A stretch of 64,000 nt of DNA, taken from NCBI RefSeq assembly GCF_900141755.1, contig NZ_LT670844.1, forward strand, positions 6,048,501 through 6,112,500. Direction: 5' to 3'. This document shows, in pieces, positions 10,453-35,670 of this stretch. How positions within the stretch are numbered: position 1 is the first letter of the stretch; every line of letters starts with the position of its first letter. Made by a program: the position numbers and the translations under genes. Below the pieces are notes generated by a model. The model was not told where the DNA came from. It worked only from the letters and a program-made list of their open reading frames with translations, and made no database searches. This DNA comes from Bradyrhizobium lablabi. Its GTDB lineage: Bacteria; Pseudomonadota; Alphaproteobacteria; Rhizobiales; Xanthobacteraceae.

Positions 10453-11625
10453 TCAGAGATATTTTCTGCCGGAGAGATTCTTCATCATCGCGCCGAGACC
10501 GAACTGCCAATGTGCGCACTCGTCGCTCGGGAGCATGCGATTGGTCAGTTTGCCAAGCTTCGGCGTGCCGATCGTAACGATATCGCCGCGCTTGTGAGTG
10601 AATCCTTCTCCTGCCACGTCCCGATCCTTGATCGGGGCAAACATGGTGCCGAGAAAAAGCACAAACCCATCGGGATACTGGTGCGTCGGTCCAATCGTTT
10701 GCGAGACGAGGTCTTCCGGATCCCGGCTGATCTTGCTGATGGAGGAATGACCTTCAAGAACAAAGCCATCCTCGCCGACGACTGTCATCGCCACATCCAT
10801 CCCGCGCACGTCATCGAGACCAAAGCTCCGGTCGAACAGACGCAGAAACGGCCCGATGGCGCAGGAAGCGTTGTTGTCTTTCGCCTTCGAAAGCAAAAGC
10901 GCGGATCGTCCTTCGAAATCGCGAAGGTTGACATCGTTTCCGAGCGTCGCGCCGACGATCCGGCCGCGGCTCGATACCACGAGCACGACTTCGGGTTCGG
11001 GGTTGTTCCAGCTTGATTTTGGATGAAGACCGGCATCCATCCCGGTCCCCACTGACGACAGAACCGGCGCCTTGGTGAAGACCTCCGCGTCCGGGCCAAT
11101 CCCGACTTCGAGATACTGGCTCCATGCCAGCTGCGAAATCAGCACGTCCTTCAGCCGCTTCGCCTCGGCGGACCCCGGCTTCAGCTTCGATAGATCGTCA
11201 CCGACAAGCCGCACCACTTCCGCCCGGATCGCGGCCGCCGATGCCGGATTGCCGCGGGCTCTTTCCTCGATAACTCTCTCAAGCATGGATATCGCGAAGG
11301 TGACTCCGGCGGCCTTGATCACCTGAAGGTCGATCGGCGCCAACAGCCAAGGCTTTCCGGAATCGCGGCGGTCCGGCGGCGTATTGGCGGCGATGCGATC
11401 GAGATCGCCGAGCAGGGTACCCTCGACGTTCCGCAGTGCACCGGCCGGATCGGTCTCGTCTGCAAGTATGCTCACCGTCGGAAAATGCGACGTCACATCG
11501 TAAAGGCCGCTGTCCCGGACCGCCACAACCGAGGGACCCGATGCGGAAGGGAGCCAAACGCGGCCAACTAGCGTGCCTGTGGTGCCGTCGTCTGGCAGTA
11601 CGGTTGCTGCGTTCAAGGATATCAT
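10453..11625 (-). CDS. Fumarylacetoacetate hydrolase-family protein (COG3970-like)
   Basis: 390-residue FAH-fold enzyme. The C-terminal two thirds hold the divalent-metal site: the acidic pair in NPEPEVVLVV, then TLGNDVNLRD, followed by KDNNASCAIGPF. Family members act on 2-keto-3-deoxy sugar acids or related diketo acids, by dehydration or C-C bond hydrolysis. Its place beside a sugar-acid operon suggests a step in pentose, rhamnose or uronate breakdown, possibly duplicating the DHDPS-type dehydratase at 3320; the exact reaction cannot be read from sequence. ATG 11625 follows GGGAGGAGCC. A longer in-frame reading to 11949 has no family similarity and is not included. Confidence 0.85.
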   Translation of the reverse strand: MISLNAATVLPDDGTTGTLVGRVWLPSASGPSVVAVRDSGLYDVTSHFPTVSILADETDPAGALRNVEGTLLGDLDRIAANTPPDRRDSGKPWLLAPIDLQVIKAAGVTFAISMLERVIEERARGNPASAAAIRAEVVRLVGDDLSKLKPGSAEAKRLKDVLISQLAWSQYLEVGIGPDAEVFTKAPVLSSVGTGMDAGLHPKSSWNNPEPEVVLVVSSRGRIVGATLGNDVNLRDFEGRSALLLSKAKDNNASCAIGPFLRLFDRSFGLDDVRGMDVAMTVVGEDGFVLEGHSSISKISRDPEDLVSQTIGPTHQYPDGFVLFLGTMFAPIKDRDVAGEGFTHKRGDIVTIGTPKLGKLTNRMLPSDECAHWQFGLGAMMKNLSGRKYL

Positions 11626-12099
11626 GGTGGCTCCTCCCGTCTTGTTATTATCGGTCTTCTGAACACTTGCAAATCGGGAGTCGAGGGAATCGTTTTCTGT
11701 GATCGGCGTGGGTCGACTGGAACAAGCCATGGTCGACTGGGATAGCGTTCGGCATGGGCTTAATTCCGCAATGACGACCAGGCCGAGCTTTTTCGCACTG
11801 CTCGAACAGGTCGGCGAGGCTTGCAATGGATCTTGGTGGAGTGCCAGTCGCCGACGCGCCACCTGGAAGCTCGTTGCCTGAATGACCCAATCCGCGCGGC
11901 TTACCGTTGGCGGCGCGATTACCATTGATGGTCGTAGCGAGAAGCGCAACGCTGGGTAGGGCCCTCCGGGGAGGTTGGCGTTCCAACCCTGCGGGGTATG
12001 CGCCGCATCGATTTACAAATAGCTCGTAAAGTATTGATCTTCTTGCGTCTCAAAGCTCCAAAGCTTACTTCTAAGCCTTTGATTTATTGTCAAAAATCA

Positions 12100-12403: not shown

Positions 12404-13579
12404 ATGTTGAACAAGATCCACAAGCTGGCGTCGAATACGCAGCTAGGGTTCGCCGCTATGCTGATGTTCGGCATTGCCACGATGATGCCGGCGCACGCCG
12501 ACATCAAAATCGGGTTTCAGGCGCCGTTGACGGGTCCCTCGGCGACCGACGGCAAGTCCGCGCAAATCGCAGCGACGATGGCGGTTGAGGATATCAACGC
12601 CGCCGGCGGCGTACTCGGGCAGAAAATCGAACTCGTCACCTATGACGACCAGGCCAAGTCCGATCAGGCAATCTTCACCGCCAACAAGTTGATCGGCGAA
12701 GACGGCGTCAAGCTGGTGGTGAACGGTAGTTATTCAGCGTCGGGCCGTGCCGCAGCGCCTGTGTTCCAGAAGGCGGGTGTCGTCATGATCTCGGCCTACG
12801 GAGTGCATCCCGACATCACCCGCGCCGGCGATTACATGTTCCGCCTGGTCCATCTCGGACCGCCCCAGGGCGCGGCCACTGCGCTCTATATCGGCAAGAC
12901 GCTCGGAATCAAAAAAGTCTCCACCATCACCATGGACAATGATTACGGACAGGCGACGATGGACGGCTTCCTCGAAGCGTCCGGCAAATACGGCATCGAA
13001 GTTCTCAACAAATACAGCTATTCGCTGAAAGACCGCCAGTTCGGTTCGATCGTCGCCAGCGTCAAGCGCGACAACCCCGACGCGGTCTATGCCACCGGCT
13101 ATTTCTTTACCGCTGGCCCTTTGGTCGCACAGCTTCGCGCCGCCGGCATCACCGTGCCGATCATCGGTTCGCAGGCGTTTGATTCGGAGAAGTTTGTCGA
13201 GATTGCCGGACCGGCTGCCGAAGGCACCTACATCATGGACAGTTTTGATCGCGACCGGAAGGACGAAACCCTTCAAAAATTCTTTGCCGAATTCAAGAAC
13301 CGCGCCGGATATTCGCCGGAAGGCGTCGCCGCCGTCACCTATTCGGCGGTGAAGCTCTTGGTGGACGGCATCAAGCGCGCCAACAGCGCCGATCCGGAAA
13401 AGGTCAGGGATGCGCTTGCGGCCACCAAGGACTTTCCCATGCTCGAAGGCAATCTCAACGGCTTCAACAGCCTGCATGAGATCGAGATGCCGATCAGCGT
13501 GAACGTGATCAAGGACGGCAAATTCGCATCGGCCGGCGTGATCAACGATCTCGCCGCCTTCGCCCCGCCCGAGAAATAA
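12404..13579 (+). CDS. Periplasmic solute-binding protein, LivJ/LivK type
   Basis: Extracytoplasmic receptor (391 aa, Peripla_BP_6 family) for the importer encoded by the next four genes. It has an N-terminal basic segment, a hydrophobic core and a probable cleavage after MMPAHA (about residue 33). The mature chain opens DIKIGFQAPLTGPSATDG and contains VEDINAAGGVLGQKIELV and VVNGSYSASGRAAAPVFQ, the usual Liv-fold motifs. The family transports branched-chain amino acids but also amides, aromatic acids and other small carboxylates. Because the operon continues into DUF917 and urocanase-like genes and carries a HutC-like operator, I infer an imidazole-type or hydantoin-type ligand. Confidence 0.9.
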   Translation: MLNKIHKLASNTQLGFAAMLMFGIATMMPAHADIKIGFQAPLTGPSATDGKSAQIAATMAVEDINAAGGVLGQKIELVTYDDQAKSDQAIFTANKLIGEDGVKLVVNGSYSASGRAAAPVFQKAGVVMISAYGVHPDITRAGDYMFRLVHLGPPQGAATALYIGKTLGIKKVSTITMDNDYGQATMDGFLEASGKYGIEVLNKYSYSLKDRQFGSIVASVKRDNPDAVYATGYFFTAGPLVAQLRAAGITVPIIGSQAFDSEKFVEIAGPAAEGTYIMDSFDRDRKDETLQKFFAEFKNRAGYSPEGVAAVTYSAVKLLVDGIKRANSADPEKVRDALAATKDFPMLEGNLNGFNSLHEIEMPISVNVIKDGKFASAGVINDLAAFAPPEK

Positions 13580-13596
13580 CCGGGGATGTGAGCGTG

Positions 13597-13623
13597 AGCG
13601 GAAGGCCGGGCACGGCTTCCGCT
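13597..13623 (+). promoter_or_regulatory. Intergenic hairpin after the binding-protein gene
   Basis: AGCGGAAGGCC (13597-13607) and GGCTTCCGCT (13614-13623) pair with one bulged base and a short loop. It lies between the binding-protein gene and the permease gene, as at 7539-7574, with no U-run, so it more likely sets relative expression than ends transcription. Confidence 0.45.
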
Positions 13624-13650
13624 TCCTAACGCGAGGCAAAGGATTATCGG

Positions 13651-14520
13651 GTGTACTACATCGATCTGGCCGTAACCGGCATCAGCTTCGGCTGCATGTA
13701 TGCGATGATGTCGGTCGGCCTGACGCTGGTCTATGGTCTCCTGCGCATCCTGCATGTGGCGCATGCCGCGGTGTTCGCATTGGGCGCCTATGTCACAGTC
13801 CTCGTCGCCAACGCGACCGGCAGCATCGCGCTCGGCTTTCTTGCCTCCATCATTGTCACGCCACTGTTTGGAATGGCGATCTATCGCTCGCTGTACGAGC
13901 CGCTGCTGAAATACCGGCCCGACGTGCCGATGATCGCCTCGGTTGGGTTATTGGTTCTGATGCAGGACGCCTTCCGCATCCTGTTCGGCGAGCAGGGTGT
14001 TACATTTCGCAGGAACGCCTTCGCGTTCACGACCTTCAATTTCGCCGGCGTTACCGTGAGCGCGGTCCAGATCGCAATCGTGATCACGGCCGCGGTGGTG
14101 TTTCTGGGCCTGCACCTCTTCACCACCCGGACCCGGATCGGCATCGGCTGGCGCGCCACCGTATCCAGGCCGCAAATCGCAGCGAGTTTCGGCATTGATC
14201 CGATCAAGGTGCGCTATCTCAATTTTGCAATAGGCTCGGCCCTTGCCGCGGTGGCCGGTGGATTGGTCGCGCTGATGAACAATCTGGTCGATCCCGGGAT
14301 CGGTTTTGTCGTCAGTTACAAGGCGCTCGCCATCATCGTCCTCGGCGGGCTTGGCAGCGTGCGCGGCACGTTGATCGCAAGCCTTGTATTGGGACTGGTC
14401 GAAGCCTACGGCACGATTTTCATCGGGGCCTGGCTCGATCGCGACGCGATCGCCTTCCTGGCCCTCATTGTGCTGCTGATGCTACGCCCGCAAGGGTTCA
14501 CCGGAGCGCGCACGGCATGA
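13651..14520 (+). CDS. LivH-type ABC permease
   Basis: First inner-membrane permease of the importer (289 aa, BPD_transp_2). The start is GTG 13651, with AAAGGA upstream. Hydrophobic throughout; motifs MSVGLTLVYGLLRILHVAH near the N-terminus, the cytoplasmic loop GIGWRATVSRPQIAASFGID (the EAA-like region contacting the ATPases) and LGGLGSVRGTLIASLVLGLV near the C-terminus. The terminal TGA overlaps the next ATG (14517-14520). Confidence 0.93.
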   Translation: MYYIDLAVTGISFGCMYAMMSVGLTLVYGLLRILHVAHAAVFALGAYVTVLVANATGSIALGFLASIIVTPLFGMAIYRSLYEPLLKYRPDVPMIASVGLLVLMQDAFRILFGEQGVTFRRNAFAFTTFNFAGVTVSAVQIAIVITAAVVFLGLHLFTTRTRIGIGWRATVSRPQIAASFGIDPIKVRYLNFAIGSALAAVAGGLVALMNNLVDPGIGFVVSYKALAIIVLGGLGSVRGTLIASLVLGLVEAYGTIFIGAWLDRDAIAFLALIVLLMLRPQGFTGARTA

Positions 14521-15365
14521 GCGCGTATGAGATCAGCATCGTTTCGATCATCGGCATCAACGTCATTCTGGCCGTCAGCCTGAATATGATCAGCGGTTTC
14601 TGCGGGCAGATCAGTCTTGGCCACGGCGCTTTCTTCGGCGCCGGCGCCTATGCGGCGGCATCCGTAATGGTCGGCACCGGCAGCGTCCCGCTCGCCATCC
14701 TCGTGGCCCTGATCACGGGCAGCCTGCTCGGCGTCGTCGTCGGCTTTGCCTCATTGCGCGTGCGGGCGGATTTTCTCGCCGTCACCACCATCGGTGTCAA
14801 TTTCCTGTTCGTCGGTTTTGTCCGAAAGCAGGCGTGGCTCGGCGGCGAGATGGGAATCAGCGGCATCCCCGCGACAGGCCTCGGCGCCTACGGCAACATG
14901 ATCATGATTCTGCTGTTCGCCGGCGCAACGATCGCCCTGAGCTTCTATGTCAGCCGCTCCTGGATGGGTTTTGCGTTCCGGGCCGTTGGCGAGGATGAAG
15001 GAGCCGCCGCCACCCTCGGCATCAACGCCAGCGCCTACAAGCTGGCGGCGTTCGGCATCGGGACCGCGCTTGCCGGCCTTGCCGGTGGTCTCTACACATT
15101 CTTTACCCAGTTCATTACCGCCGATGCGTTCGACTTCATCTTCTCGGTGATGTTGATGGCGATGGTCGTGATCGGGGGCATCGGGTCCACCTGGGGCGTC
15201 GTGATCGCCGCCGTCGGGCTGACGCTGTTGCCCGAGGCCATTCGCTTCGTGAACGATTATCGCTTGCTGGTATTCGGCGGGCTACTCGTGCTCGTGATCC
15301 GTCTGGCGCCGGGTGGCCTCGCGGCCATGATGCAAAATCTCTTCCTGCGGAAGAGGCAATCATGA
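14517..15365 (+). CDS. LivM-type ABC permease
   Basis: Second inner-membrane permease of the importer (282 aa). Contains LNMISGFCGQISLGHGAFFG near residue 22 (the LivM hallmark), the coupling loop AFRAVGEDEGAAATLGIN and VVIGGIGSTWGVVIAAVGLT near the end. It overlaps both neighbours by ATGA, so the permease and ATPase genes are translationally coupled. Confidence 0.94.
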   Translation: MSAYEISIVSIIGINVILAVSLNMISGFCGQISLGHGAFFGAGAYAAASVMVGTGSVPLAILVALITGSLLGVVVGFASLRVRADFLAVTTIGVNFLFVGFVRKQAWLGGEMGISGIPATGLGAYGNMIMILLFAGATIALSFYVSRSWMGFAFRAVGEDEGAAATLGINASAYKLAAFGIGTALAGLAGGLYTFFTQFITADAFDFIFSVMLMAMVVIGGIGSTWGVVIAAVGLTLLPEAIRFVNDYRLLVFGGLLVLVIRLAPGGLAAMMQNLFLRKRQS

Positions 15366-16129
15366 GCGCGGCGCTGCAACTCGACGATGTGGCGATCCGC
15401 TTCGGTGGCGTGCAGGCCGTCGATGGGGTGTCGTTTGCCATTGAGCAGGGCGATTTCGTCGGGCTGATCGGGCCGAACGGCGCCGGCAAGACGACGCTGA
15501 TAAAAATTATCGCGGGCATCCTGCGTCCCGATCGGGGACGGGTCCGGCTTTCGGGCATCGATGTCACCGCGTACGCGACCGCGGCACGGGTGCGCCGTGG
15601 CCTCGCACTGACGCACCAGATCGTGCGGCCGTTTCGCGAGATGACGGTTCTGGATAATGTTGTGTTGGGCGCGGGTTATCGCCGCACCTCCAATCCATTC
15701 GGCGCCATGCTCTCCACCGACAGGCGCCACGAAATCGAGCGTGCCGCGCACATTCTCGCGCAGGTCGGATTGGCCGGGACGGAAAACAAGCCTGCCGGCT
15801 CGTTGCCGCTCGGTCAGATGAAACGGCTCGAAGTCGCGCGCGCGCTCGCTGTCGATCCACAAGTGATCCTGCTTGACGAGCCGTTGGCCGGACTGAACCA
15901 TGCCGAGGCGGCGAGGCAGGTCGAGACCATTGCCGAGGTTCAGGGACGGGGCATCACCGTGGTGCTGGTCGAGCACAATCTGGAAGAAGTGATGCGGATC
16001 TGCCGCCGCCTGATCGTGTTGAACAACGGCAAAGTCATTGGCGACGGCAAGCCGCGCGAGGTCATGGCCGATCCGGTCGTGCATGACGCCTATGTCGGAG
16101 GTGGGATGGTGGCGCATGCTGAAGGCTGA
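15362..16129 (+). CDS. LivG-type ABC ATPase
   Basis: ATP-binding subunit (255 aa) of the importer. Walker A GPNGAGKTTLIKII, Q-loop LTHQIVRPF, Walker B VILLDEPLAGLNHAEA and H-loop VLVEHNLEEVM. The signature reads LPLGQMKRLEVARAL, a little different from the common LSYGQQR form but still a C-loop. The 3' end overlaps the livF-like gene by 14 nt. Confidence 0.93.
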   Translation: MSAALQLDDVAIRFGGVQAVDGVSFAIEQGDFVGLIGPNGAGKTTLIKIIAGILRPDRGRVRLSGIDVTAYATAARVRRGLALTHQIVRPFREMTVLDNVVLGAGYRRTSNPFGAMLSTDRRHEIERAAHILAQVGLAGTENKPAGSLPLGQMKRLEVARALAVDPQVILLDEPLAGLNHAEAARQVETIAEVQGRGITVVLVEHNLEEVMRICRRLIVLNNGKVIGDGKPREVMADPVVHDAYVGGGMVAHAEG

Positions 16130-16829
16130 CAATTTGAGTTGCGGTTATGGTTCGGTGGAAGCCGTGCACAACGTCTCCTTCGACGTCCCGGCTGGTTCGG
16201 TGTTCGCATTGCTCGGCCCCAATGGAGCGGGCAAGACCTCGACCATCATGGCGATCATGGGGCATGTCGACATTCACGGCGGCAGCATTGTCCTTGATGG
16301 CGATGACATCACCCGCCGTCGCGCCATCGACCGCGTCGGTCTCGGGATTTCGCTGGTGCCCGAAGGGCGTCAGCTATTTTCCGATCTCACGGTGGATGAG
16401 AATCTGACCGCAGGCGGTTACGCGCGTCCGATCAGCCGCGACGCCGCCAAGCGCGACCGCGTATTCGGCTATTTTCCGCGGCTCTATGAGCGACGTACCC
16501 AGCTGGCGGGCTCGCTGTCCGGTGGCGAGCAGCAGATGCTGGCGATCGGCCGCGCGCTGATGGCCGAGCCGCGCCTGTTGCTGGTCGATGAACTGTCGCT
16601 TGGTCTGATGCCGAAGATGGTCGATCTTTGCCTGGACGCGCTGCTTCAGCTGAAGCGCGAAGGCCTGACCATCGTGCTGGTCGAGCAAAACACCGCGCGT
16701 GCGCTCGATGTGGCGGATCAGGTCTGCGTGCTGTCGTCAGGTGTGCAGGTATACCGGGGCACGGCGGCGGAGGCCAAAGCCGCCGGCTCGATGTTCGCAA
16801 CCTTCCTTGGCATGGACGAGCCGGTCTAG
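16116..16829 (+). CDS. LivF-type ABC ATPase
   Basis: Second ATP-binding subunit (237 aa). I start at ATG 16116 because GGAGGTGGGA precedes it by 8 nt and the protein then begins MLKADNLSCGYGSVEAVHNV as LivF proteins do; a longer frame from 16038 is only overlap with the gene before. Walker A GPNGAGKTSTIMAI, LVPEGRQLFSDLTVDENL (the LivF mark), signature LSGGEQQMLAIGRAL, Walker B LLLVDELSLGL and H-loop VLVEQNTARAL. The DUF917 gene follows after 42 nt on the same strand. Confidence 0.94.
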   Translation: MLKADNLSCGYGSVEAVHNVSFDVPAGSVFALLGPNGAGKTSTIMAIMGHVDIHGGSIVLDGDDITRRRAIDRVGLGISLVPEGRQLFSDLTVDENLTAGGYARPISRDAAKRDRVFGYFPRLYERRTQLAGSLSGGEQQMLAIGRALMAEPRLLLVDELSLGLMPKMVDLCLDALLQLKREGLTIVLVEQNTARALDVADQVCVLSSGVQVYRGTAAEAKAAGSMFATFLGMDEPV

Positions 16830-16871
16830 TCATTATTTGAATGTGCCGCGTGGCGGTCGAAAGGAAAAACA

Positions 16872-17939
16872 ATGGCGCGAATGCTGACGGCGGAAGATGT
16901 GGAAGCAGGGCTTGTCGGCGGATTGTTCCTGTCGGCGGGGGGCAGCGGCAAGAATGCGGTCGAAAAGAACCGTGGCCTGGGGCGCATGGCGCTGGACTAT
17001 GGTGGTGTCCGTCTGGTCGGGCTTGACGAGCTTGATCCCGACGCGACGATCATCACCGCGACCGCGGTGGGTGCACCGGGCTTCGCCAATTGGGCGATCA
17101 AGCCGCGAGACTCCATCAACGCGGCACAACGGCTCGTCGAAAAGCTCGACAAGCCGCCGGTCGGCGTTATCTGCGGCCATGTGCCGGGCTTCAATGCGTG
17201 GCTGGTCGCTGCCGCACTCGGGCTCGACTATGTCGACGCCGCATCGAACGGCCGCGGACATCCGACGGTGAAGATGGGCGGCATGGGGCTGGCGTCACGG
17301 CTCGATCTTTCGATTACCCAGATCGCGAGCAGCGGCAGCAAGGCCGAAAATTCGGAGTTCGCGATCTCAGCGGAAGGCGACATTGTCCGCACCTCGAACG
17401 TGATGCGGCAGGCGGCGGTGATCAATGGCGGGCTGATCTATGCCGCGCGCGGTCCGCTGACGGCAGGCTTTATCAGGGAGAACGGCGCCGCGGGCGCGAT
17501 CACCTTCCAGCTCGATCTCGGCCGCGCCATGCTCGCGGCCAGCGGTGCCGATCACATCCGTGCGACAGTCGAATTCCTTGGCGGCGAGTTGCTGGTCGAC
17601 GGCGAGGTCACGCAGAACACCGTGGCCTATGGCGGCGGCTTCGATCTCGGCCAGATGACCGTTCGGGGCAAAAACGGCGAGGCCGTGCTCGGCGTCTACA
17701 ACGAGTTCATGACCGCGGATTTCGCAGGCAAGCGCGTGGCGACCTTCCCGGATATGATCGGAACGCTCGATCCGCAAACAGGAGAGGTGGTCTCGATTTC
17801 GGAGTCCAAGCCCGGCAGCCGCGTCGCCGTCATCATCGCCCATCGCTCGAAATTCCCGGTCGGCAAGGGCGCGCTCGATCCGGCGGTCTTTCCCGAGGTG
17901 GAAAAGGCCATGGGTGTCGATATGCAGTCGTATCTCTGA
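16872..17939 (+). CDS. DUF917 / S-methyl-thiohydantoin desulfurase-family protein
   Basis: 355-residue protein of the DUF917 family (COG3535, PF06032). N-terminal domain: LTAEDVEAGLVGGLFLSAGG followed by SGKNAVEK, the glycine-rich family mark; middle GHVPGFNAWLVAAALGLDYV and AASNGRGHPTVKMGGMG; C-terminal domain from about residue 235. From memory the family was renamed after an S-methyl-thiohydantoin desulfurase, which removes sulfur from a 2-thio-substituted hydantoin in bacterial ergothioneine-type catabolism. Here it lies in one operon with a urocanase paralogue (the enzyme one step earlier in that route), which supports the reading. Other DUF917 proteins sit beside hydantoinase/oxoprolinase genes and remain uncharacterised, so the exact substrate is open. 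GAAAGGAAAAAC precedes the ATG. Confidence 0.8.
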   Translation: MARMLTAEDVEAGLVGGLFLSAGGSGKNAVEKNRGLGRMALDYGGVRLVGLDELDPDATIITATAVGAPGFANWAIKPRDSINAAQRLVEKLDKPPVGVICGHVPGFNAWLVAAALGLDYVDAASNGRGHPTVKMGGMGLASRLDLSITQIASSGSKAENSEFAISAEGDIVRTSNVMRQAAVINGGLIYAARGPLTAGFIRENGAAGAITFQLDLGRAMLAASGADHIRATVEFLGGELLVDGEVTQNTVAYGGGFDLGQMTVRGKNGEAVLGVYNEFMTADFAGKRVATFPDMIGTLDPQTGEVVSISESKPGSRVAVIIAHRSKFPVGKGALDPAVFPEVEKAMGVDMQSYL

Positions 17940-17958
17940 CAAAAGGCAGGAAACAATC

Positions 17959-18564
17959 ATGCTGCGTCTCTACGATAGCCGGTTGTCCGGCAATGCCTGG
18001 AAAGTGCGCATCCTGCTCACGCAACTCGGCATTCCCTTCGAACGGATCACGCTCGATCTGGCCAAGGGCGCGGCCGCTGAGCCTGCGTTTCGCGCCAAGA
18101 GCCGTTTCGCACGCGTTCCCGTGCTTGAGCTGGAGGATGGCCGCACCATCGTGGAGTCAGCGGCGATCATGCTTTATCTGGCGGAAGGCTCGCCGCTGCT
18201 GCCGGACGATCGCTATCTCCGTGCCGAAGTCACGAGCTGGCTGACGTTCGAGCAGGCGGACCTGCTGCGTGCGTTGGCGCTTCCGCGGTTCTACAACATG
18301 CGCGGCATCGCCGATCAGATGAAGGGTCGGATCGCCGATTTCCAGGAAGGTGCCTATGCAGCACTGGCCAAGCTCGACGACTGGCTTGCGACGCATGACT
18401 GGCTTGTCGATAACAGTTACACCATCGCCGACATCGGCATGTTTGGCTATGTATCGATGGCGCCGCAGGGCGGCTACGAGATGGAAAGATTTCCCGCGAT
18501 CGGCGCGTGGCTTGCGCGGGTCAAGGCACAGCCCGGCTGGGTCCCTTTGGTCGAGGAGGCGTGA
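17959..18564 (+). CDS. Glutathione S-transferase family protein
   Basis: 201-residue cytosolic GST. Thioredoxin-fold N-terminal domain: MLRLYDSRLSGNAWKVRILL, the cis-proline motif RVPVLELEDG and the glutathione gamma-Glu contact IVESAAIMLYLAE. The helical C-terminal domain has the N-capping motif YTIADIGMFGYVSMA. ATG 17959 with AGGAAA upstream; 3 nt separate the stop from the next gene. Lying between a thiohydantoin-desulfurase-like gene and a thiourocanate-hydratase-like gene, it could remove or accept the sulfur or methylthio group as a glutathione adduct (inference), or be a general protective enzyme. Confidence 0.88.
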   Translation: MLRLYDSRLSGNAWKVRILLTQLGIPFERITLDLAKGAAAEPAFRAKSRFARVPVLELEDGRTIVESAAIMLYLAEGSPLLPDDRYLRAEVTSWLTFEQADLLRALALPRFYNMRGIADQMKGRIADFQEGAYAALAKLDDWLATHDWLVDNSYTIADIGMFGYVSMAPQGGYEMERFPAIGAWLARVKAQPGWVPLVEEA

Positions 18565-18567
18565 GCG

Positions 18568-20226
18568 ATGGATATTCCCGTGCGTCGTGGCAAGGAAGTC
18601 AAGGCGGGGCGCGGCAATGTCCTGCGCTGCAAGGGCTGGCGGCAGGAGGCCATCCTGCGTCTACTGGAGAATAACCTCGAGAACGGTGAGGATCCCGACA
18701 ATCTCGTGATCTACATGTCGATCGCGCGCGCGGCGCGCGACTGGAAGAGCTTTGATCGTATCGTCGCGACGCTATCGACGATGCGGGAAGATCAGACGCT
18801 GGTGATGCAGTCGGGCAAGCCGATCGGGGTGTTTCCCGGGCAGGCCACGACGCCGCTGGTCATCATGGCCAATGGCAATATCGTGGGCGAATGGAGCCAG
18901 GAAGAGAGCCGGCGCAAGCTCGACGACATGGGGCTCACCATCATGCCCGGCATGACGGCCGCGGCCTGGCAATATATCGGCAGCCAGGGAATCCTGCAGG
19001 GCACCTACGAGACCTTCATGGCGATCGCGCGCCAGCATTTCGGCGGCACGCTTGCCGGCCGGCTGCTGCTCACATCCGGTTGCGGCGGCATGAGCGGCGC
19101 GCAGCCGCTCGCCGGAAAACTCGCCGGCGCATCGACGCTGGTGATCGAGGTCGATCAGGCGCGCATCGATCGCCGCATCGCCAGCGGCTATTGCGACGCC
19201 ACAACCGACAATCTCGATGACGCGATAGCGCAATGGCAATCCGCGCGTGACGAGCGGCGTCCGCTGGCGCTGGCATTGTGCGCAAATTCGGCCGTCGTAC
19301 TGCCGGAACTGATAAAACGCGGCATTCTGCCCGATATCGTCACGGACCAGACCTTTCCCGATCCCTTGAAGGGCTACGTTCCGGCGGAGCTGTCACTCGA
19401 CCAGGCGCGCGCGATGCGGACCAGCGATCCAAATGGGCTGATCGCGCTGGCGCGGAAATCCGTTGCCATCCACGTTCGCGCGATGCTGGGATTCATGGAT
19501 CGCGGCGCGATCGTGTTTGAATACGGCAATAGTCTGCGGGCCGAGGCAAAGGCCGCCGGCGTCGAAGACGCGTTTCGGATGCGCAGCTTTGTCGACCTCT
19601 ACATCCGTCCGCTATTCTGCGAAGGAATAGGGCCGTTCCGCTGGATCGCGGTCTCCGGCAATCCGCAGGACATCTATACCATCGATGACATGATCCTGGA
19701 GACATTTTCGTCCAACCATCCGATTTCATCTTGGATCGGAAAGGCTCGCGAGCATGTTCAGTTCACCGGCCTGCCGGCGCGGATCGGTTGGCTCGGCTAT
19801 GGCGAGCGCAGCCGTTTGGCGCTGATGGTCAACGAAGCCGTGGCAAGCGGCAAGATTTCCGCGCCTGTTGCGTTTACCCGCGACCATCTCGATTCAGGTT
19901 CGGCGGCGCTGCCGCATCGCGAAACCGAAAACATGAAGGACGGCTCCGACGCCATCGCCGACTGGCCGATCCTCAACGCGCTGTTGAATTGCTCGTCCGG
20001 CGCCGATCTCGTCGCCATTCACGGCCTTGGCGGACGTGGCGTCAGTGCCGGCGTAACCATCGTCGCGGACGGCAAGCCTGAGACCGCCGAGCGGCTCAAG
20101 CGTGTGCTGGATGGCGATCCCGGCATCGGCGTGCTGCGTCACGCCGACGCCGGATACGACATCGCGATCGAGCAGGCCGAACGCACCGGCCTGTCCGCAA
20201 CGGTGCCGCTGGGGTTGCCTTCTTAA
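18568..20226 (+). CDS. Urocanase paralogue, probable (S-methyl-)thiourocanate hydratase
   Basis: 552-residue member of the NAD+-dependent urocanase family, clearly different from the ordinary HutU at 22917. The NAD-binding core is kept (QYIGSQGILQGTYETF; SGCGGMSGAQPLAGK), as are the Arg in GPFRWIAVSG and the acid loop RDHLDSGS. Changed against the local HutU: Cys409 of ARICWVG is Gly407 (ARIGWLG); YGGIGRAAR is [18 protein letters not shown] is [19 protein letters not shown] is AIHGLGGRGVSAG. These are active-site and cofactor-adjacent segments. A HutU already exists 2.7 kb away and the DUF917 desulfurase-like gene is in the same operon, so hydration of thiourocanate or S-methyl-thiourocanate is the best reading. 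Last gene of the operon. Confidence 0.82.
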   Translation: MDIPVRRGKEVKAGRGNVLRCKGWRQEAILRLLENNLENGEDPDNLVIYMSIARAARDWKSFDRIVATLSTMREDQTLVMQSGKPIGVFPGQATTPLVIMANGNIVGEWSQEESRRKLDDMGLTIMPGMTAAAWQYIGSQGILQGTYETFMAIARQHFGGTLAGRLLLTSGCGGMSGAQPLAGKLAGASTLVIEVDQARIDRRIASGYCDATTDNLDDAIAQWQSARDERRPLALALCANSAVVLPELIKRGILPDIVTDQTFPDPLKGYVPAELSLDQARAMRTSDPNGLIALARKSVAIHVRAMLGFMDRGAIVFEYGNSLRAEAKAAGVEDAFRMRSFVDLYIRPLFCEGIGPFRWIAVSGNPQDIYTIDDMILETFSSNHPISSWIGKAREHVQFTGLPARIGWLGYGERSRLALMVNEAVASGKISAPVAFTRDHLDSGSAALPHRETENMKDGSDAIADWPILNALLNCSSGADLVAIHGLGGRGVSAGVTIVADGKPETAERLKRVLDGDPGIGVLRHADAGYDIAIEQAERTGLSATVPLGLPS

Positions 20227-20484: not shown

Positions 20485-21486
20485 TTGCCGCCGATTTACA
20501 TCGCCTATCTGAACCGCCTCGACATCGAGGAACTTAGGATCACCGACGACGAAATATTGTCGGCGATCGAGGCGAGCCTTGCCAGCCAGGGGCGGGGTGA
20601 GACGGTGATCGAACCTCGGATGCATCTCGAACCCGGGGTCGCCAACGGTCATTTCAACGTGCTGCGCGGCGCCATCCGGGAGCCGATCGATAGCGCGGGC
20701 GTCAAAGTGGTCGGCGACTTTGTCGATAATTACAAACTCGGCTTTCCCTCTGAACTGGCGATCCTGGCCCTGTTCGATCCGCGCACCGGCGCGCCCAAGG
20801 CGATTCTCGATGCCAGCGGTATCACCGACATGCGCACCGGCGCCGTCACTGCGATCGGCGCCAAGCATCTGGCGCGGAAGAACTCAAAGGTCCTCGGACA
20901 TATCGGCGCGCGCGGCACCGCCTATTGGAACGTGCGCCTGCTCAATCATCTCTTTGATTTCGACGAGATCCGCGTTCACTCCCGACGCGAGGAAAGCCGC
21001 AACGCGTTCGCCGATGGGCTGAGCCGGGATCTCGGCAAGAAGGTAGTGGCGACCGCCGACTGGCGGAGCTGCGTCGAAGGCGCCGACATCGTGGTCGAGG
21101 CCTCGCGGCTTTCGGAGCCCACGCCACTCTTGAAGACCTCCTGGATCAAACCCGGCGCGTTTGTGGTTCCTTACGGCACCATGAGCGCCATCGAATTGTC
21201 GCTGACCGACATCATGGCAAAACTCGTCGTCGACGATTGGGGGCAGTGCAAGGGCGGCAAGTTCGGCAGCCTGCGGGCCCATGTCGAGGCCGGCAAGCTG
21301 TCGGAGGCGACCTTGCACGCCGAGCTCGGGCAGATCGTGGCCGGCCTGAAGCCGGGACGGCAAAATGATGCCGAGACCAACCTGCTCTGGCACCGCGGTC
21401 TCTCTTTGTCGGATATCGCCTTGGGCCACGCCATGCTGGAGAAATCGAAGCGGCTCGGCATCGGGCAGCAGCTTCGTTTCGCGTGA
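20485..21486 (+). CDS. Ornithine cyclodeaminase / mu-crystallin family protein
   Basis: 333-residue NAD(P)-binding protein. Family blocks: FVDNYKLGFPSELAILALFD, ITDMRTGAVTAIGAKHLA, the dinucleotide loop GHIGARGTAYWNVRLL and ADIVVEASRLSEPTPLL. The start is TTG 20485 with GAGGAGG 7 nt upstream. Relatives include ornithine cyclodeaminase, alanine dehydrogenase and ketimine or Delta1-pyrroline-2-carboxylate reductases, so the reaction may be deamination-cyclisation or imine reduction. The HutC-like site upstream and the neighbouring hut genes suggest a substrate connected with histidine or imidazole catabolism (inference). Confidence 0.85.
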   Translation: MPPIYIAYLNRLDIEELRITDDEILSAIEASLASQGRGETVIEPRMHLEPGVANGHFNVLRGAIREPIDSAGVKVVGDFVDNYKLGFPSELAILALFDPRTGAPKAILDASGITDMRTGAVTAIGAKHLARKNSKVLGHIGARGTAYWNVRLLNHLFDFDEIRVHSRREESRNAFADGLSRDLGKKVVATADWRSCVEGADIVVEASRLSEPTPLLKTSWIKPGAFVVPYGTMSAIELSLTDIMAKLVVDDWGQCKGGKFGSLRAHVEAGKLSEATLHAELGQIVAGLKPGRQNDAETNLLWHRGLSLSDIALGHAMLEKSKRLGIGQQLRFA

Positions 21487-22916: not shown

Positions 22917-24581
22917 TCAGGCGAGAGCAGGCAGGTCGAGACCAAATTGCCGCGCGCAGTCGATCGCGATGTCGTAGCCGGCATCGGCATGACGCATCAC
23001 GCCGCTCGCGGGGTCGTTCCACAAGACGCGAGCGATCCGCGCGCTGGCCTCCGGCGTGCCGTCACAGACGATCACCATGCCGGCGTGCTGGGAAAAGCCC
23101 ATGCCGACGCCGCCGCCATGATGCAGCGACACCCAGGTGGCGCCGCTGGCGCAATTGAGCAGCGCGTTGAGCAGCGGCCAGTCGGAGACGGCGTCGGAGC
23201 CATCGCGCATCGATTCGGTCTCGCGGTTGGGCGAGGCGACCGAGCCGGAATCGAGATGGTCACGGCCGATGACGACGGGCGCCTTCAACTCGCCTTTGGC
23301 CACCATTTCGTTGAAGGCGAGGCCGAGGCGATGGCGATCGCCGAGCCCGACCCAGCAGATGCGCGCCGGCAGGCCCTGGAATGCGATACGTTCGCGCGCC
23401 ATGTCGAGCCAGTGATGCAGCGCCGCGTTGTCCGGCAGCAATTCCTTGACCTTGGCGTCGGTGCGATAAATATCCTCGGGATCGCCCGACAGCGCCGCCC
23501 AGCGGAACGGGCCGACGCCACGGCAAAACAGCGGCCTGATATAGGCCGGCACGAAACCCGGAAAATCAAAGGCGTCCTTGACGCCTTCCTCGAACGCCAT
23601 CTGGCGAATGTTGTTGCCGTAATCCACCACCGGAATGCCCATGCGATGAAAATCCAGCATGGCGCGGACGTGTTCCGCCATCGAGGCCCGCGCGGCACGG
23701 GCGACGCCCTTCGGATCGGTCTCGCGGCGCGCTTCCCATTCGCCTGACGTCCAGCCCTTCGGAAGATAGCCGTTGACGGGATCGTGCGCCGAGGTCTGGT
23801 CGGTCACAGCATCAGGGCGCACGCCACGCCGCACCAGCTCGGGAAAAATGTCGGCGGCGTTGCCAAGGAGGCCGACCGAAACCGGCTTGCGGTCGCGGCC
23901 CGCTTGCTCCATGAGCGCGAGAGCTTCATCGAGGCTTGCGGCTTGCCGGTCCAGATACCGCGTTCGCAGCCGCATCTCGATCCGCGACGGCTGGCATTCG
24001 ACGGCAAGACATGACGCGCCAGCCATGACGGCGGCGAGCGGCTGGGCACCACCCATGCCGCCAAGCCCGGCGGTGAGAATCCATTTTCCGCTGAGATCGC
24101 CGCCATAATGCTGGCGGCCCAGTTCGACGAAGGTCTCGTAGGTGCCCTGAATGATTCCCTGGCTGCCGATGTAGATCCAGGAGCCGGCGGTCATCTGGCC
24201 GTACATCATGAGACCTTTGCGGTCGAGCTCACTGAAGTGTTCCCAGTTGGCCCAATGCGGCACCAGGTTGGAATTGGCGATCAGGACCCGCGGCGCATCG
24301 GCATGGGTGCGAAATACGCCGACCGGTTTGCCCGACTGCACCAGCAGCGTCTGATCGCCTTCCAGCCGCTTCAGCGTCGCGACAATGCGATCGAAGCTTT
24401 CCCAATCGCGTGCCGCCCGCCCGATGCCGCCATAAACCACAAGCTCGCTCGGCTTTTCCGCAACGTCGGGATCGAGATTGTTCATCAGCATCCGCATCGG
24501 CGCTTCGGTGAGCCACGACTTGGCCGATAGGTTGCTGCCGTGCGCGGCGCGGATAACGCGGGCATTGTCGATGCGGGTCAT
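22917..24581 (-). CDS. hutU: Urocanate hydratase (urocanase)
   Basis: NAD+-dependent hydration of urocanate to imidazolone-propionate (EC 4.2.1.49), step 2 of histidine breakdown. 554 residues, full length. Has all canonical marks: [55 protein letters not shown], catalytic Cys409 in [19 protein letters not shown] and [17 protein letters not shown]. It is the reference against which the paralogue at 18568 is seen to differ. Lies 39 nt after hutI in the hutI-hutU-hutD operon. Confidence 0.97.
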
Positions 24582-30890: not shown

Positions 30891-31089
30891 TAATGAAAAG
30901 GGGACGCCGCTTCGCAAGTGGAGATGATAGGCATCGGTTGTCTAATTGCGAGGCATATGCGAGCCCGCCCTTGATTCAGGGTACAAGATCAGATTCCACG
31001 AGCCCGACCTGTCAAAAGCTAACCGGAGCGATGGATGTCTTGCACGCTTACGCGGCGGTGTTACCGGTATGGAAGCCGGAGTTAGCAGG

Positions 31090-32799
31090 ATGGATCGTTT
31101 CAACCTTGGCAGCCATACCAGGATTATTTCTACAGGCTCGCCGGAAGCGCAGCGCTGGTTCAACCTGGGTTTGAACTGGTGCTTTGCCTTCAACAAGTCG
31201 GAGGGGGTCAAGTGCTTTCAAAAGGCGCTTGAATTCGATCCCGAATGCGTCATGGCCTATTGGGGAATCGCCTACGGTTCCGGACCTTTTTACAACATGA
31301 CGTGGCGCGACTACAGTGAGGAAGAGGCCAATAACGCGACCAGAACAGCCTACCAGCATATCCAGATCGCGCGCGGCCTGACGCACCGGGCGACGGAGCT
31401 GGAAAATTGGCTGGTCGAGACGCTGGCCCGCCGCGTTCAGAAGCCGCATTTTGTTGCGCCGGTAGAGTTTGATCGCTGGGACGATGACTACGCCGCGGAA
31501 CTGCGCAGGGTCTATCATCAACATCGCGACGATCACGATGTGGTGGCGCTGTTTGTCGAGGCTTTGATCATTCGAACGCCACGACGCTTGTGGGATGTCA
31601 AAACCGGATTGCCCGCGAAGAATTCAGACGTGATCGAAGCGCTCGAAGTGTGCGAACGCGCGATCGAGGCGACCGACCGAAACGGGCTAAACAAGCATCC
31701 GGCGCTGGTGCATTTGCATATCCATATTCTTGAAACGTCAAATGAACCGGAACGCGCGGCGAGCTCGGCGGTCGCCCTCGCCACGATGTGCCCGGACGCG
31801 GGGCATATGAACCATATGCCAGGGCATGTCTACGTGCTGTGCGGCGAATACCAGAAGGCAAAAATCGCCAGCACGAGGGCGATAGCGGGAAACGACATCT
31901 ATCTCGCTTACGCCGGAGCGCTTACGCCCTACACCACGGCATGCGCGCACGACCTTCTGTTGATGATGCATGCCTGCATGTTCATGGGCAGATATGAGGA
32001 CTCGATCGCGGCGGCGAATAAATTGCGCGGCATGCTCACGAAAGAGGTTCTCAGCGTCAAAGGCCGCCCCAAATTTTCCACGAGCCTCGAAGGTTATTAT
32101 TCGATGACCGTGCACGTGATGGTGCGTTTCGGACGCTGGCAGGAGATTATCGACGCGCCACTGCCTGACGATCCGGAGCTGTATCTGGTTTCCACCACGA
32201 TGCACCACTACGCGAAGGGCGTCGCGCACGCGGCGCTGAAGCGGTTCGACGACGCCGACCGGGAGCGCCAACTCTTTCACGACAGCGTCAGGCGCATCCC
32301 ACCGGAACGAAAAGTCTTCAATAATACCGCCCGCAGCATATTGGCGGTCGGCGAGAAGATGCTGGACGGCGAGCTCGAATACCACAAAGGCAATCATGAA
32401 CTGGCCTACGCCCATTTGCGGGAAGCCGTCGATAGAGACGACAATCTCGAATACATCGAGCCGTGGGCCTGGATGCATCCGCCGCGGCATGCGCTTGCGG
32501 CTCTATTGGCTGAGCAGGGCCATTACAGCGAGGCTGAAGAGGTCTGCCGCGACGATTTGGGCCTGAGCGGCCGAATTCAACGGTGCGCACAGCATCCGGA
32601 TAATGTTTGGGCGCTCCGCGGTCTGGCGGAATGTCTGCAGCAGCGTGGCGAGGTCGAAGAATTGGCGGTCGTGCAACGAAGGTTGGCGTCCGCGATGGCC
32701 CTTTCGGATGTGCCGATCATGTCTTCCTGCATGTGCCGGACGACGGTTCGGACCGAAAAGCCGGACGGCTGTTGCGCGCAAGCGGATGGACGCAATTGA
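31090..32799 (+). CDS. TPR-repeat protein of unknown function
   Basis: About 569 residues of helical repeats with TPR-like character: AQRWFNLGLNWCFAFNKSEG with KCFQKALEFDPECVMAYWGI near the N-terminus, then CGEYQKAKIASTRAIAG, GVAHAALKRFDDADRERQLF and LAALLAEQGHYSEAEEVCRD. A histidine-rich motif MNHMPGHVYVLCG and a Cys-rich tail (MSSCMCRT) are also seen. Start uncertain: ATG 31090 precedes the conserved repeat, ATG 31069 and 30946 are in frame. No signal peptide is evident. It is divergent from the HutC-controlled importer and just upstream of the amidohydrolase; no function is proposed. Confidence 0.8.
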   Translation: MDRFNLGSHTRIISTGSPEAQRWFNLGLNWCFAFNKSEGVKCFQKALEFDPECVMAYWGIAYGSGPFYNMTWRDYSEEEANNATRTAYQHIQIARGLTHRATELENWLVETLARRVQKPHFVAPVEFDRWDDDYAAELRRVYHQHRDDHDVVALFVEALIIRTPRRLWDVKTGLPAKNSDVIEALEVCERAIEATDRNGLNKHPALVHLHIHILETSNEPERAASSAVALATMCPDAGHMNHMPGHVYVLCGEYQKAKIASTRAIAGNDIYLAYAGALTPYTTACAHDLLLMMHACMFMGRYEDSIAAANKLRGMLTKEVLSVKGRPKFSTSLEGYYSMTVHVMVRFGRWQEIIDAPLPDDPELYLVSTTMHHYAKGVAHAALKRFDDADRERQLFHDSVRRIPPERKVFNNTARSILAVGEKMLDGELEYHKGNHELAYAHLREAVDRDDNLEYIEPWAWMHPPRHALAALLAEQGHYSEAEEVCRDDLGLSGRIQRCAQHPDNVWALRGLAECLQQRGEVEELAVVQRRLASAMALSDVPIMSSCMCRTTVRTEKPDGCCAQADGRN

Positions 32800-34092: not shown

Positions 34093-35670
34093 TCATGAGA
34101 ATGTCCCGAGTTGACTAGGCAGTATGGCGGTGAGCAACGCTGGAGACGTACGACCGTCCGCGTGCAAGGCCCAAAGCCTCATGGCCTCGATATCAGGCGC
34201 GAGGTAGCGGTCGCGTTCGAGGAAGGCAACTCTTGAGCGGATGGCATCGAACTCCGCCTCGAGGAGCGGTGAACTCTTCAGGGGGCGCTTTAACTCGATG
34301 CCCTGTGCGGCAGCCATCGCTTCGATCCCGACCACGACGGCTGTGTTGTTCACCATGTCGCCGAGCCGGCGCGCCGCGTAAGTTGCCATCGATACGTGAT
34401 CCTCTTGATTGGCCGAAGTCGGGAGACTGTCGACACTCGCGGGATGGGCAAGCGACTTGTTTTCGGATGCGAGTGCGGCGGCCGTAACCTGCGCGATCAT
34501 GAATCCGGAATTGAGACCTCCATCACGAACCAGGAATGGCGGCAGGCCCGATAATGTGCTGTCGACGAGCAGCGCGATCCGCCGCTCCGCCATCGCGCCA
34601 ATCTCGGATATCGCGACCGCAAGAATATCCGCGGCAAAGGCAACGGGCTCAGCGTGAAAATTGCCGCCGGAGATCACCTCAAAGGTCTCGGCAAAGACCA
34701 GCGGATTGTCTGACGCTGCATTGGCCTCGATCGCCAGCACGCGCGCCGCGTGCGTCAGGCTGTCGAGACATGCGCCCATCACCTGCGGGATGCAGCGAAC
34801 CGAGTATGGATCCTGCACCCGTCCGCAGTTGGCGTGAGACGGCACGATCTCGCTGCCTTCGAGAAGCGCAAGCATCGCGGCCGCAACGGCTATCTGCCCA
34901 GCCTGGCCGCGCGCCTGATGGATTCGCGGGTCGAAAGGTTTGATGGAACCCTGGATGGCTTCGAGCGAAAGCGCCCCCGAAATCAACGCCGACGCCAAGA
35001 CATCTTCCGCGCCGAACAGGCCGGCGAGGGCGAGAGCCGTCGATACCTGCGTGCCATTGAGCAGAGCCAGGCCCTCCTTGGCGCCCAGCACAAAGGGCTC
35101 CAGCCCGACCAGTGCCATGGCGTCGGTCCCGCTCACGCGTTTTCCGTCGGCGGTGAGGGCTTCGCCTTCACCGATGAGCACACACGCCAGATGCGCAAGG
35201 GGGGCCAAGTCCCCGGATGCTCCGACCGATCCCTTTGCCGGGATGCGAGGCGTGATGCCCGCGTTGAGAAGCGCGAGCAGCGCATCGACCAGTGCCGGCC
35301 GTACGCCAGAGTGCCCGCGCGCCAAACTCACGACCTTGGTCGCGAGCACCAATCGGACGACGGCAGGCGGGAGCGGCTCCCCCGTGCCGACGCTGTGCGA
35401 AAGCACAAGATTGCGTTGCAGTTGCGCCAAATGGTCGTTGCTGATGCGCGTGCTCGCCAGCTTGCCGAAGCCGGTGTTGATCCCATAGACGACCTTGTCT
35501 TTGTCGACGATGTCCTGGACGGTTGCCTCCGCGGCCTGCATGGCCGGGGCGACCGAAGGGTCCAGCGAGAGCGCAACGCCACCGGCATGGATGCGTCTGA
35601 GAAGCGGTAGGTCAACAGCACCTGGCTTCAGTACGGCGGTGTTCCGGAAGGCGGGGTTGATTGAGGTCAT
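34093..35670 (-). CDS. hutH: Histidine ammonia-lyase
   Basis: Non-oxidative deamination of L-histidine to urocanate (EC 4.3.1.3), the entry step. 525 residues; the Ala151-Ser152-Gly153 triad that cyclises into the MIO cofactor is present in [14 protein letters not shown]. Also [13 protein letters not shown] (catalytic Tyr), [13 protein letters not shown] and [12 protein letters not shown]. The intact MIO triad argues against ergothionase, which lacks it. The gene is 8.4 kb from hutI-hutU on the same strand and carries its own HutC-like site just upstream. Confidence 0.96.

Follow-up and report, generated by a model that had tools for sequence, protein, structure and literature searches.

A candidate uptake-and-desulfurisation operon for S-methyl-thiourocanate in Bradyrhizobium lablabi

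An eight-gene operon was analyzed in a 64,000-nucleotide stretch of the 7.91-Mb single-contig genome of Bradyrhizobium lablabi (G000:C1:6048501-6112500; hereafter the window). The best explanation, with a probability of roughly 0.6, is that it serves the uptake and desulfurisation of S-methyl-thiourocanate (3-[2-(methylthio)imidazol-4-yl]acrylate). Its two key enzymes, a urocanase paralogue and a DUF917 protein, are predicted by their model scores to act in the S-methyl branch of thiourocanate breakdown. In the proposed sequence of events, a five-part Liv-type importer would bring in the already deaminated acid, which the urocanase paralogue would hydrate to S-methyl-thiohydantoin-5-propionate. 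The DUF917 protein would then hydrolyse this intermediate to hydantoin-5-propionate and methanethiol. A glutathione S-transferase (GST) would use glutathione in the part of the reaction that is specific to the methylthio group, our first guess being the handling or transfer of that group. Only import, hydration and desulfurisation would remain of the pathway here, and the lyase step would take place outside the organism. We infer from the sequences the importer substrate, the direction of flow, the role of the GST and, as this genome has no orthologue of the usual hydantoinase, also what becomes of hydantoin-5-propionate.

The operon and its S-methyl-type enzymes

The eight intact genes lie on the + strand and occupy exactly 12404-20226. 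They encode, in order, a substrate-binding protein (SBP), two permeases, two ATPases, the DUF917/S-Me-THD protein, the GST and the urocanase paralogue. The successive intergenic gaps are 71, -4, -4, -14, 42, 19 and 3 bases, so that at four of the seven junctions the genes overlap or are separated by 3 bases. The gene families are supported by Pfam and NCBIfam matches, and the Liv/HAAT importer set is complete. An earlier note made from this sequence had described the same eight same-strand genes, with a complete importer, DUF917, a GST and a non-canonical urocanase; gene calls and both model collections confirmed this description. The same genes in the same order were found in six other loci (L003 and L176-L180), so their grouping is not due to chance. 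In L180, a 1.35-kb insert (10742-11899) with a transposase-like reading frame, recognized by eye, separates the LivF-type ATPase and DUF917 genes.

The DUF917 protein scored 549.3 bits on the S-methyl thiohydantoin desulfurase model NF058532, above its cut-off of 450, and 286.7 bits on the thiohydantoin desulfurase model NF058529, below its cut-off of 440. The urocanase paralogue behaved similarly: it reached 960.8 bits on the S-methyl thiourocanate hydratase model NF058531 (960.6 in the genome search; cut-off 880) and failed the thiourocanate hydratase model NF058530 with 735.1 bits (cut-off 930). Desulfurase and hydratase thus lay 99 and 81 bits above their respective S-methyl cut-offs, and the two failed models rule out the unmethylated thiourocanate type. 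As the enzymes are of the S-methyl rather than the thiol type, methanethiol rather than sulfide would be released; the earlier note had left both products open, and only methanethiol fits these scores.

The paralogue exceeds the broad cut-off of the urocanase model TIGR01228 (699.1 bits, cut-off 375) but shows differences from ordinary urocanases. It scored 262 bits more on NF058531, and the genuine urocanase, HutU, is encoded separately in the window (Table 1), which speaks against ordinary histidine utilisation as its function. In the alignment, the paralogue lacks the HutU loop (13 protein letters, not shown). The deletion at this loop amounts to four residues in the window, L178, L172, L005, L007 and L008, to three in L006 and to two in L182. 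The Arg of the RETE motif is kept by the S-methyl-type hydratases and HutU (RESE in L006), with IMTE in the four thiourocanate-type rows aligned. The closest solved chains are 8q9v and 8q9u (710 and 707 bits), which we take to be the S-methyl enzyme of Variovorax, although their PDB names say urocanate hydratase only. Thus, the view of the earlier note that the operon pairs a thiourocanate-type hydratase with a thiohydantoin-type desulfurase, and that a sulfur-bearing imidazole is the likely substrate, was borne out by the model scores.

The operon is rare. The genus, class, order and phylum genome sets searched are samples and partly overlap; within them, the desulfurase model was exceeded in 7 of 195 same-genus genomes, this one included, and by this genome alone in the class (1 of 386) and the order (1 of 397). 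None of 379 genomes of the order to which the L007 genome belongs exceeded it. The hydratase model was passed in one of 397 genomes of the phylum, again this one. All eight genes are under purifying selection: pairwise ratios of nonsynonymous to synonymous rates against the six relatives ranged from 0.038 to 0.176, and ratios on the window branch, counted only at codons that are identical in L178, L179 and L180 and differ from them by a single base in the window, from 0.019 to 0.089. Since the window branch includes time before the loss of a neighbouring UbiD gene (see below), selection may have relaxed recently.

GST, lyases and importers across loci

Twelve S-methyl-type loci were compared: the window, L003, L005, L006, L172, L173 and L176-L181. 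Their desulfurases pass NF058532, with that of L003 unscored but 88% identical to the protein of the window. Eight of the twelve come from the same genus or from a nearby metagenome-assembled genome (MAG; L003). Duplicates were not counted; these are four Agrobacterium plasmid records (H2-H5, with a similar score), L004, which belongs to the genome of L177, and the short loci L083-L089. L182 (desulfurase 408 bits, hydratase 890 bits) and L008 (hydratase 797 bits) were kept apart as S-methyl-like, as each has one enzyme below the cut-off. The 33 thiourocanate-type loci were sorted by their nearest desulfurase, that of L174; NF058529 scores were obtained for L174 and, later, L270 only.

The GST gene adjoins the desulfurase gene on the same strand in all twelve S-methyl-type loci, with aligned ends 3-122 bases apart. 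It was found in none of the 33 thiourocanate-type clusters by tblastn with two queries at E 1e-5, a search that a strongly divergent GST could escape; L183 has a 27% match 6 kb away on the other strand. The Fisher exact value for this split is 3.5e-11, but such values overstate the independence of the loci because of the eight close relatives among the twelve. The protein has both GST domains, and S10, N12, K15, P54, E66 and S67, which we place in the glutathione site, are among 42 residues invariant in the 12 sequences. As the GST accompanies S-methyl-type loci and not thiourocanate-type clusters, the distribution suggests that it would be needed where the leaving group is methanethiol.

Ergothionase, the first enzyme of ergothioneine breakdown, lacks the Ala-Ser-Gly triad of histidine ammonia-lyase (HAL). 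The single PF00221 lyase of the genome is HutH according to TIGR01225, and its triad is intact; the PF00221 search, which matched HutH alone, found no ergothionase-type lyase. The model does recognise triad-less lyases, as all four tried scored 279-512 bits. Moreover, PF00221 found no lyase in two other same-genus genomes carrying the operon, G053 (one contig, 100% complete) and G048 (30 contigs, 99%), nor in G928, the MAG of unstated completeness from which L003 was taken and which also carries it. Within the fetched stretches, a triad-less, ergothionase-like lyase was present in 28 of the 33 thiourocanate-type loci versus two of the twelve S-methyl-type loci (L172 and L005). "Triad-less" here means that ASGD is absent from the translated stretch; the replacing motif was not seen for L241, L246 and L182. 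The other five thiourocanate-type loci comprise L183, with a triad-bearing lyase, and four without a lyase. Among the remaining S-methyl-type loci, four have a triad-bearing HutH-type lyase (window, L173, L176 and L177) and six have none.

Two loci show unusual arrangements around this step. In L179 (G053:C1:4078001-4098000), hutU, hutI and hutF stand beside the operon, in the genome without a PF00221 lyase, as if this organism scavenged both urocanate and its S-methyl-thio form. In L182 (11126-18210), five lyase-like stretches, 25-28% identical to HutH, stand in a row behind the S-methyl-type hydratase and the borderline desulfurase.

The type of importer differs along with the lyase. An orthologous Liv importer was found in nine of the twelve S-methyl-type loci and in none of the thiourocanate-type loci, whereas ProV-/ProW-like betaine-importer genes on the same strand were found in 18 of 33 thiourocanate-type versus two of twelve S-methyl-type loci (again L172 and L005). 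In Streptococcus, an ATP-binding cassette (ABC) system annotated as Opu/Pro type imports ergothioneine (PMC9732360). Among the five lyase-free thiourocanate-type clusters, those of Paracoccus (L174) and Thalassospira (L270) have tripartite ATP-independent periplasmic (TRAP) transporters, which are typical of organic acids, and L188 and L252 have only ProV-like ATPases on the strand of the cluster. In L252 (7493-11488), the matches to the hydratase and to the carbamoylase are both split into two pieces that lie in different frames, so these genes are probably decaying or mis-sequenced. In L258 (9015-17280), a thiourocanate-type desulfurase and hydratase stand beside a distant Liv-like ABC system (25-40%), with no lyase found within 20 kb; the same import shortcut has possibly evolved apart there.

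The SBP itself is informative. The Glu at LivJ/LivK position 226 presumably holds the alpha-ammonium of the amino acid; it is replaced by Gln in all nine S-methyl-type SBPs, including that of the window. At position 102, the SBPs of the window, L003 and L176-L180 have Val, and those of L172 and L181 have Thr. Together, the absence of the lyase, the exchange of importer and lyase across loci and the loss of Glu226 favour the deaminated acid as the imported compound. Import of thiourocanate itself, which the earlier note had raised as a possibility, is thus favoured by the comparative data. L007 (4391-11611) is different: its 21.6 kb hold an orthologous importer (51-57%), whose SBP keeps Glu226, a hydratase of 864 bits (below the cut-off of 880) and a HutI-like amidohydrolase; a DUF917 gene was not found there. 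The substrate of this pair is probably another modified urocanate.

The second half of the pathway and rival explanations

In L003 and L176-L180, a UbiD-family decarboxylase gene directly precedes the SBP gene. Before it stand a divergent tandem-LysR gene, a carbamoylase of the ErtE type and a hydantoinase of the ErtD type, the ErtD gene lying beyond the fetched stretch in L003 and L180. L176 and L177 also have UbiX 3' of the hydratase. The regulator of L178 (1893-3761), conserved beside UbiD, has 623 residues and two LysR helix-turn-helix stretches, and is apparently two LysR proteins in one chain.

The window has kept little of this neighbourhood. Directly 5' of the SBP gene, tblastn found a UbiD remnant with 61% identity over UbiD residues 71-106 (48.9 bits, against at most 23.9 in 2000 shuffles of the 454-base stretch), which is the only match to the UbiD of the relatives in the genome. 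The tandem-LysR gene was absent from the window, to which that search was confined. On the ErtD model NF058538, the best score in the genome was 215.8 bits (cut-off 600), and a search with the Agrobacterium protein found no ErtD orthologue, the best match by score being 29% identical. Of the 13 genomes or records searched, 10 have an ErtD above the cut-off; the exceptions are this genome and those of L006 and L007. An ErtE orthologue does exist at G000:C1:6138780-6140018, 26 kb beyond the window. It is 55% identical to that of L172 and 83% identical to the L178 copy, which passes NF058540 (604.4 bits, cut-off 520). Given the UbiD remnant, the missing ErtD and the displaced ErtE, the strain has kept the import-hydration-desulfurisation half and has lost or moved the other. 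The earlier note had placed the last two hydrolases outside the operon; this holds here, but not in the same-genus relatives, where both lie in its neighbourhood.

The two halves of the pathway are separable elsewhere, as shown by plasmid pT173d of Ensifer canadensis (L271:6349-10993). There, the genes for ErtD, ErtE, UbiD and UbiX follow one another, accompanied by a LysR gene, and no hydratase or desulfurase was found in the 19 kb covered.

UbiD was sought in 48 cluster loci apart from the window. Of these, 34 are of thiourocanate type and 14 are S-methyl or S-methyl-like, the latter including one entry that extends L181. It was present in seven, L003, L176-L180 and L270, six of which are close relatives. 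UbiD and the triad-less lyase never occurred together among these loci: the lyase was found in none of the seven UbiD loci, and UbiD in none of the at least 30 lyase loci. This exclusion could mean that the pathway has a second entry, but the history of the lineages alone could also explain it. The nearest solved relatives of this UbiD are 6h6v (258 bits), then UbiD (154 bits) and AnInD (148 bits).

The flanking genes of the operon are listed in Table 1. The ornithine cyclodeaminase/mu-crystallin gene stands 3' of the hydratase in four of seven compared loci (the window, L003, L179 and L180, not L176-L178) and is probably outside the pathway. On the 5' side, gene 10453-11949, fumarylacetoacetase-like by eye and without an NCBIfam match, is unsupported as an operon member; UbiD, tandem LysR, ErtE and ErtD occupy its place in the relatives. 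A tetratricopeptide repeat protein (30946-32799), near HutH and far from the operon, is 71% identical to the one 3' of UbiX in L176; we read it as a trace of rearrangement.

Table 1. Features of the window, with positions numbered from its first nucleotide.
Feature	Position	Strand	Evidence
Substrate-binding protein, Liv/HAAT type	12404..13579	+	Pfam PF13458, 217 bits; signal-like N-terminus by eye
Permease, LivH type	13651..14520	+	PF02653; GTG start
Permease, LivM type	14517..15365	+	PF02653
ATPase, LivG type	15362..16129	+	PF00005; LivG model best but below its own cut-off
ATPase, LivF type	16116..16829	+	PF00005; LivF model best but below its own cut-off
Predicted S-methyl thiohydantoin desulfurase (DUF917 / S-Me-THD)	16872..17939	+	NF058532; PF06032 and PF20906
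Glutathione S-transferase-like protein	17959..18564	+	PF13417, PF00043
Predicted S-methyl thiourocanate hydratase (urocanase paralogue)	18568..20226	+	NF058531
Ornithine cyclodeaminase/mu-crystallin family protein	20485..21486	+	PF02423; neighbour of the operon
Genuine urocanase HutU	22917..24581	-	TIGR01228, 965.2 bits; NF058531, 717.2 bits (below 880)
HutH histidine ammonia-lyase	34093..35670	-	PF00221, TIGR01225; intact Ala-Ser-Gly triad
UbiD-family decarboxylase gene remnant, 36-38 residues	12201..12308	+	tblastn match directly 5' of the SBP gene

Several observations weigh against the uptake of S-methyl-thiourocanate as proposed. The hydratase also exceeds the broad hutU cut-off (375 bits on TIGR01228). 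Position 18 of the SBP (LivJ numbering) is Asp in all ten compared sequences and could hold a cation. The lack of a betaine importer holds only for the surroundings of the operon. The Agrobacterium pAt locus L172 combines the Liv importer with a betaine-type ABC system and a triad-less lyase, so that in this locus the importer does not go with loss of the lyase. The GST is absent from L182 and L008, and with ErtD missing from the genome, the carbon skeleton may not be used completely. Finally, a triad-bearing HutH-type lyase stands inside the S-methyl cluster of Lichenihabitans (L173), and another 4.7 kb from the desulfurase in both L176 and L177.

These last lyases bear on a different entry into the pathway. 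The importer might take up S-methyl-ergothioneine or S-methyl-thiohistidine, from which HutH or an unrelated lyase would make S-methyl-thiourocanate inside the cell. We consider this improbable, though it is the strongest competitor. HutH is encoded in the same window, and the HutH-type lyases in or near the L173, L176 and L177 clusters mean that a primary amine precursor such as S-methyl-thiohistidine may be used. These lyases form a clade (98/95) apart from the window's HutH. The clade also holds the lyase L198, which sits on another contig than the cluster of its genome, so its members may be plain HutH. G048 and G053, however, carry the operon without any PF00221 lyase, the HutH of the window keeps the triad of a true HAL, and the SBP is without Glu226. 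Furthermore, a betaine has no free amine for the HAL cofactor to act on, which counts against S-methyl-ergothioneine as a substrate of HutH.

A second alternative is that the operon is a leftover from the loss of UbiD, ErtD and the local regulator, and is either idle or serves only to release methanethiol as a sulfur source. The reduced UbiD, the missing ErtD and the lack of a tandem-LysR gene in the window fit such a history, but the eight genes are open, their window-branch ratios are low and ErtE has been kept, which makes the leftover quite unlikely; its sulfur-source form is in any case compatible with the uptake and desulfurisation of S-methyl-thiourocanate. The least probable explanation, a sulfur-free 2-substituted or N-methylated urocanate from which DUF917 would remove another group, finds some footing in L007, whose importer and hydratase can serve something else given that no DUF917 was found there, but is very hard to reconcile with a desulfurase and a hydratase that both pass the S-methyl cut-offs.

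Significance and comparison with known systems

Altogether, the earlier reading of the operon is partly supported, its ergothioneine-type precursor being an assumption. The present analysis adds to it the predicted S-methyl form of the substrate, the missing genes and the GST partnership. The enzyme chemistry is already known, and it is the shortcut by import that we infer here.

A broader, tentative proposal, which we hold to be somewhat less probable than its contrary, is that soil alphaproteobacteria scavenge thiourocanates and S-methyl-thiourocanates released by others, through organic-acid importers that replace the betaine importer and ergothionase. The S-methyl branch would need a glutathione-dependent third protein for C-S cleavage or disposal of the methylthio group, and in the relatives the prenylated-flavin mononucleotide decarboxylase UbiD, sometimes with UbiX, would replace the lyase as a second, undescribed entry. 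If true, the pathway would be divided between organisms, with thiourocanates as traded goods, and the orphan GST and the UbiD/UbiX pair would gain a defined metabolic setting. Ergothioneine is produced by fungi and some bacteria, and soil would receive sulfur, nitrogen and methanethiol from the breakdown of this compound and its S-methyl form. In the titles and abstract openings searched, which cover few subscription journals, no paper was found on a Liv-type thiourocanate importer, or on a GST or UbiD in a thiourocanate pathway.

Cross-feeding has a parallel in the gut, where bacteria are reported to feed on an acid left by ergothioneine breakdown, by context thiourocanic acid (PMC13405746, citing another paper). 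The thiourocanate desulfhydrase of gut bacteria (Feng et al. 2025; PMC13405746, PMC12771579) is described as a xanthine-oxidase homologue that cuts the C-S bond reductively. As in the operon of the window, sulfur is taken from a thiourocanate-type intermediate, but the operon would use a hydratase and a DUF917 hydrolase instead.

The closest known enzymes are those behind NF058531 and NF058532 and the structures 8q9u/8q9v. Both proteins of the window pass the corresponding cut-offs, and the hydratase has the same short loop and RETE motif. The importer, the missing lyase and the genome-wide loss of ErtD and UbiD differ and are particular to this strain or its relatives.

The five-step bacterial catabolism of ergothioneine, the Ert pathway, was reportedly described by Beliaeva et al. 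in 2021. After the lyase, its steps run in the order hydration, desulfurisation, hydantoin hydrolysis and carbamoyl hydrolysis. The predicted chemistry of the operon follows the same order, and an ErtE orthologue is present in the genome. In contrast to the Ert pathway, an ergothionase-like lyase and an ErtD orthologue are missing from the genome of the window, the operon has no betaine importer at its side, and the sulfur would be methylated rather than a free thiol or thione.

Finally, the Agrobacterium tumefaciens pAt locus (L172) resembles the operon: its importer, desulfurase, GST and hydratase genes are orthologous and share a strand. It has in addition an IclR gene, ErtE, ErtD, the betaine ABC importer, the triad-less lyase and a BisC-family molybdenum reductase. 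Such molybdenum S/N-oxide reductases were found in three S-methyl clusters (L172:16665-18995, L181:3880-6195 and L005:11632-13923); the family member scored 968 bits on bisC_fam, below the cut-off of 1017.55, and may act on a sulfoxide of the methylthio compound.

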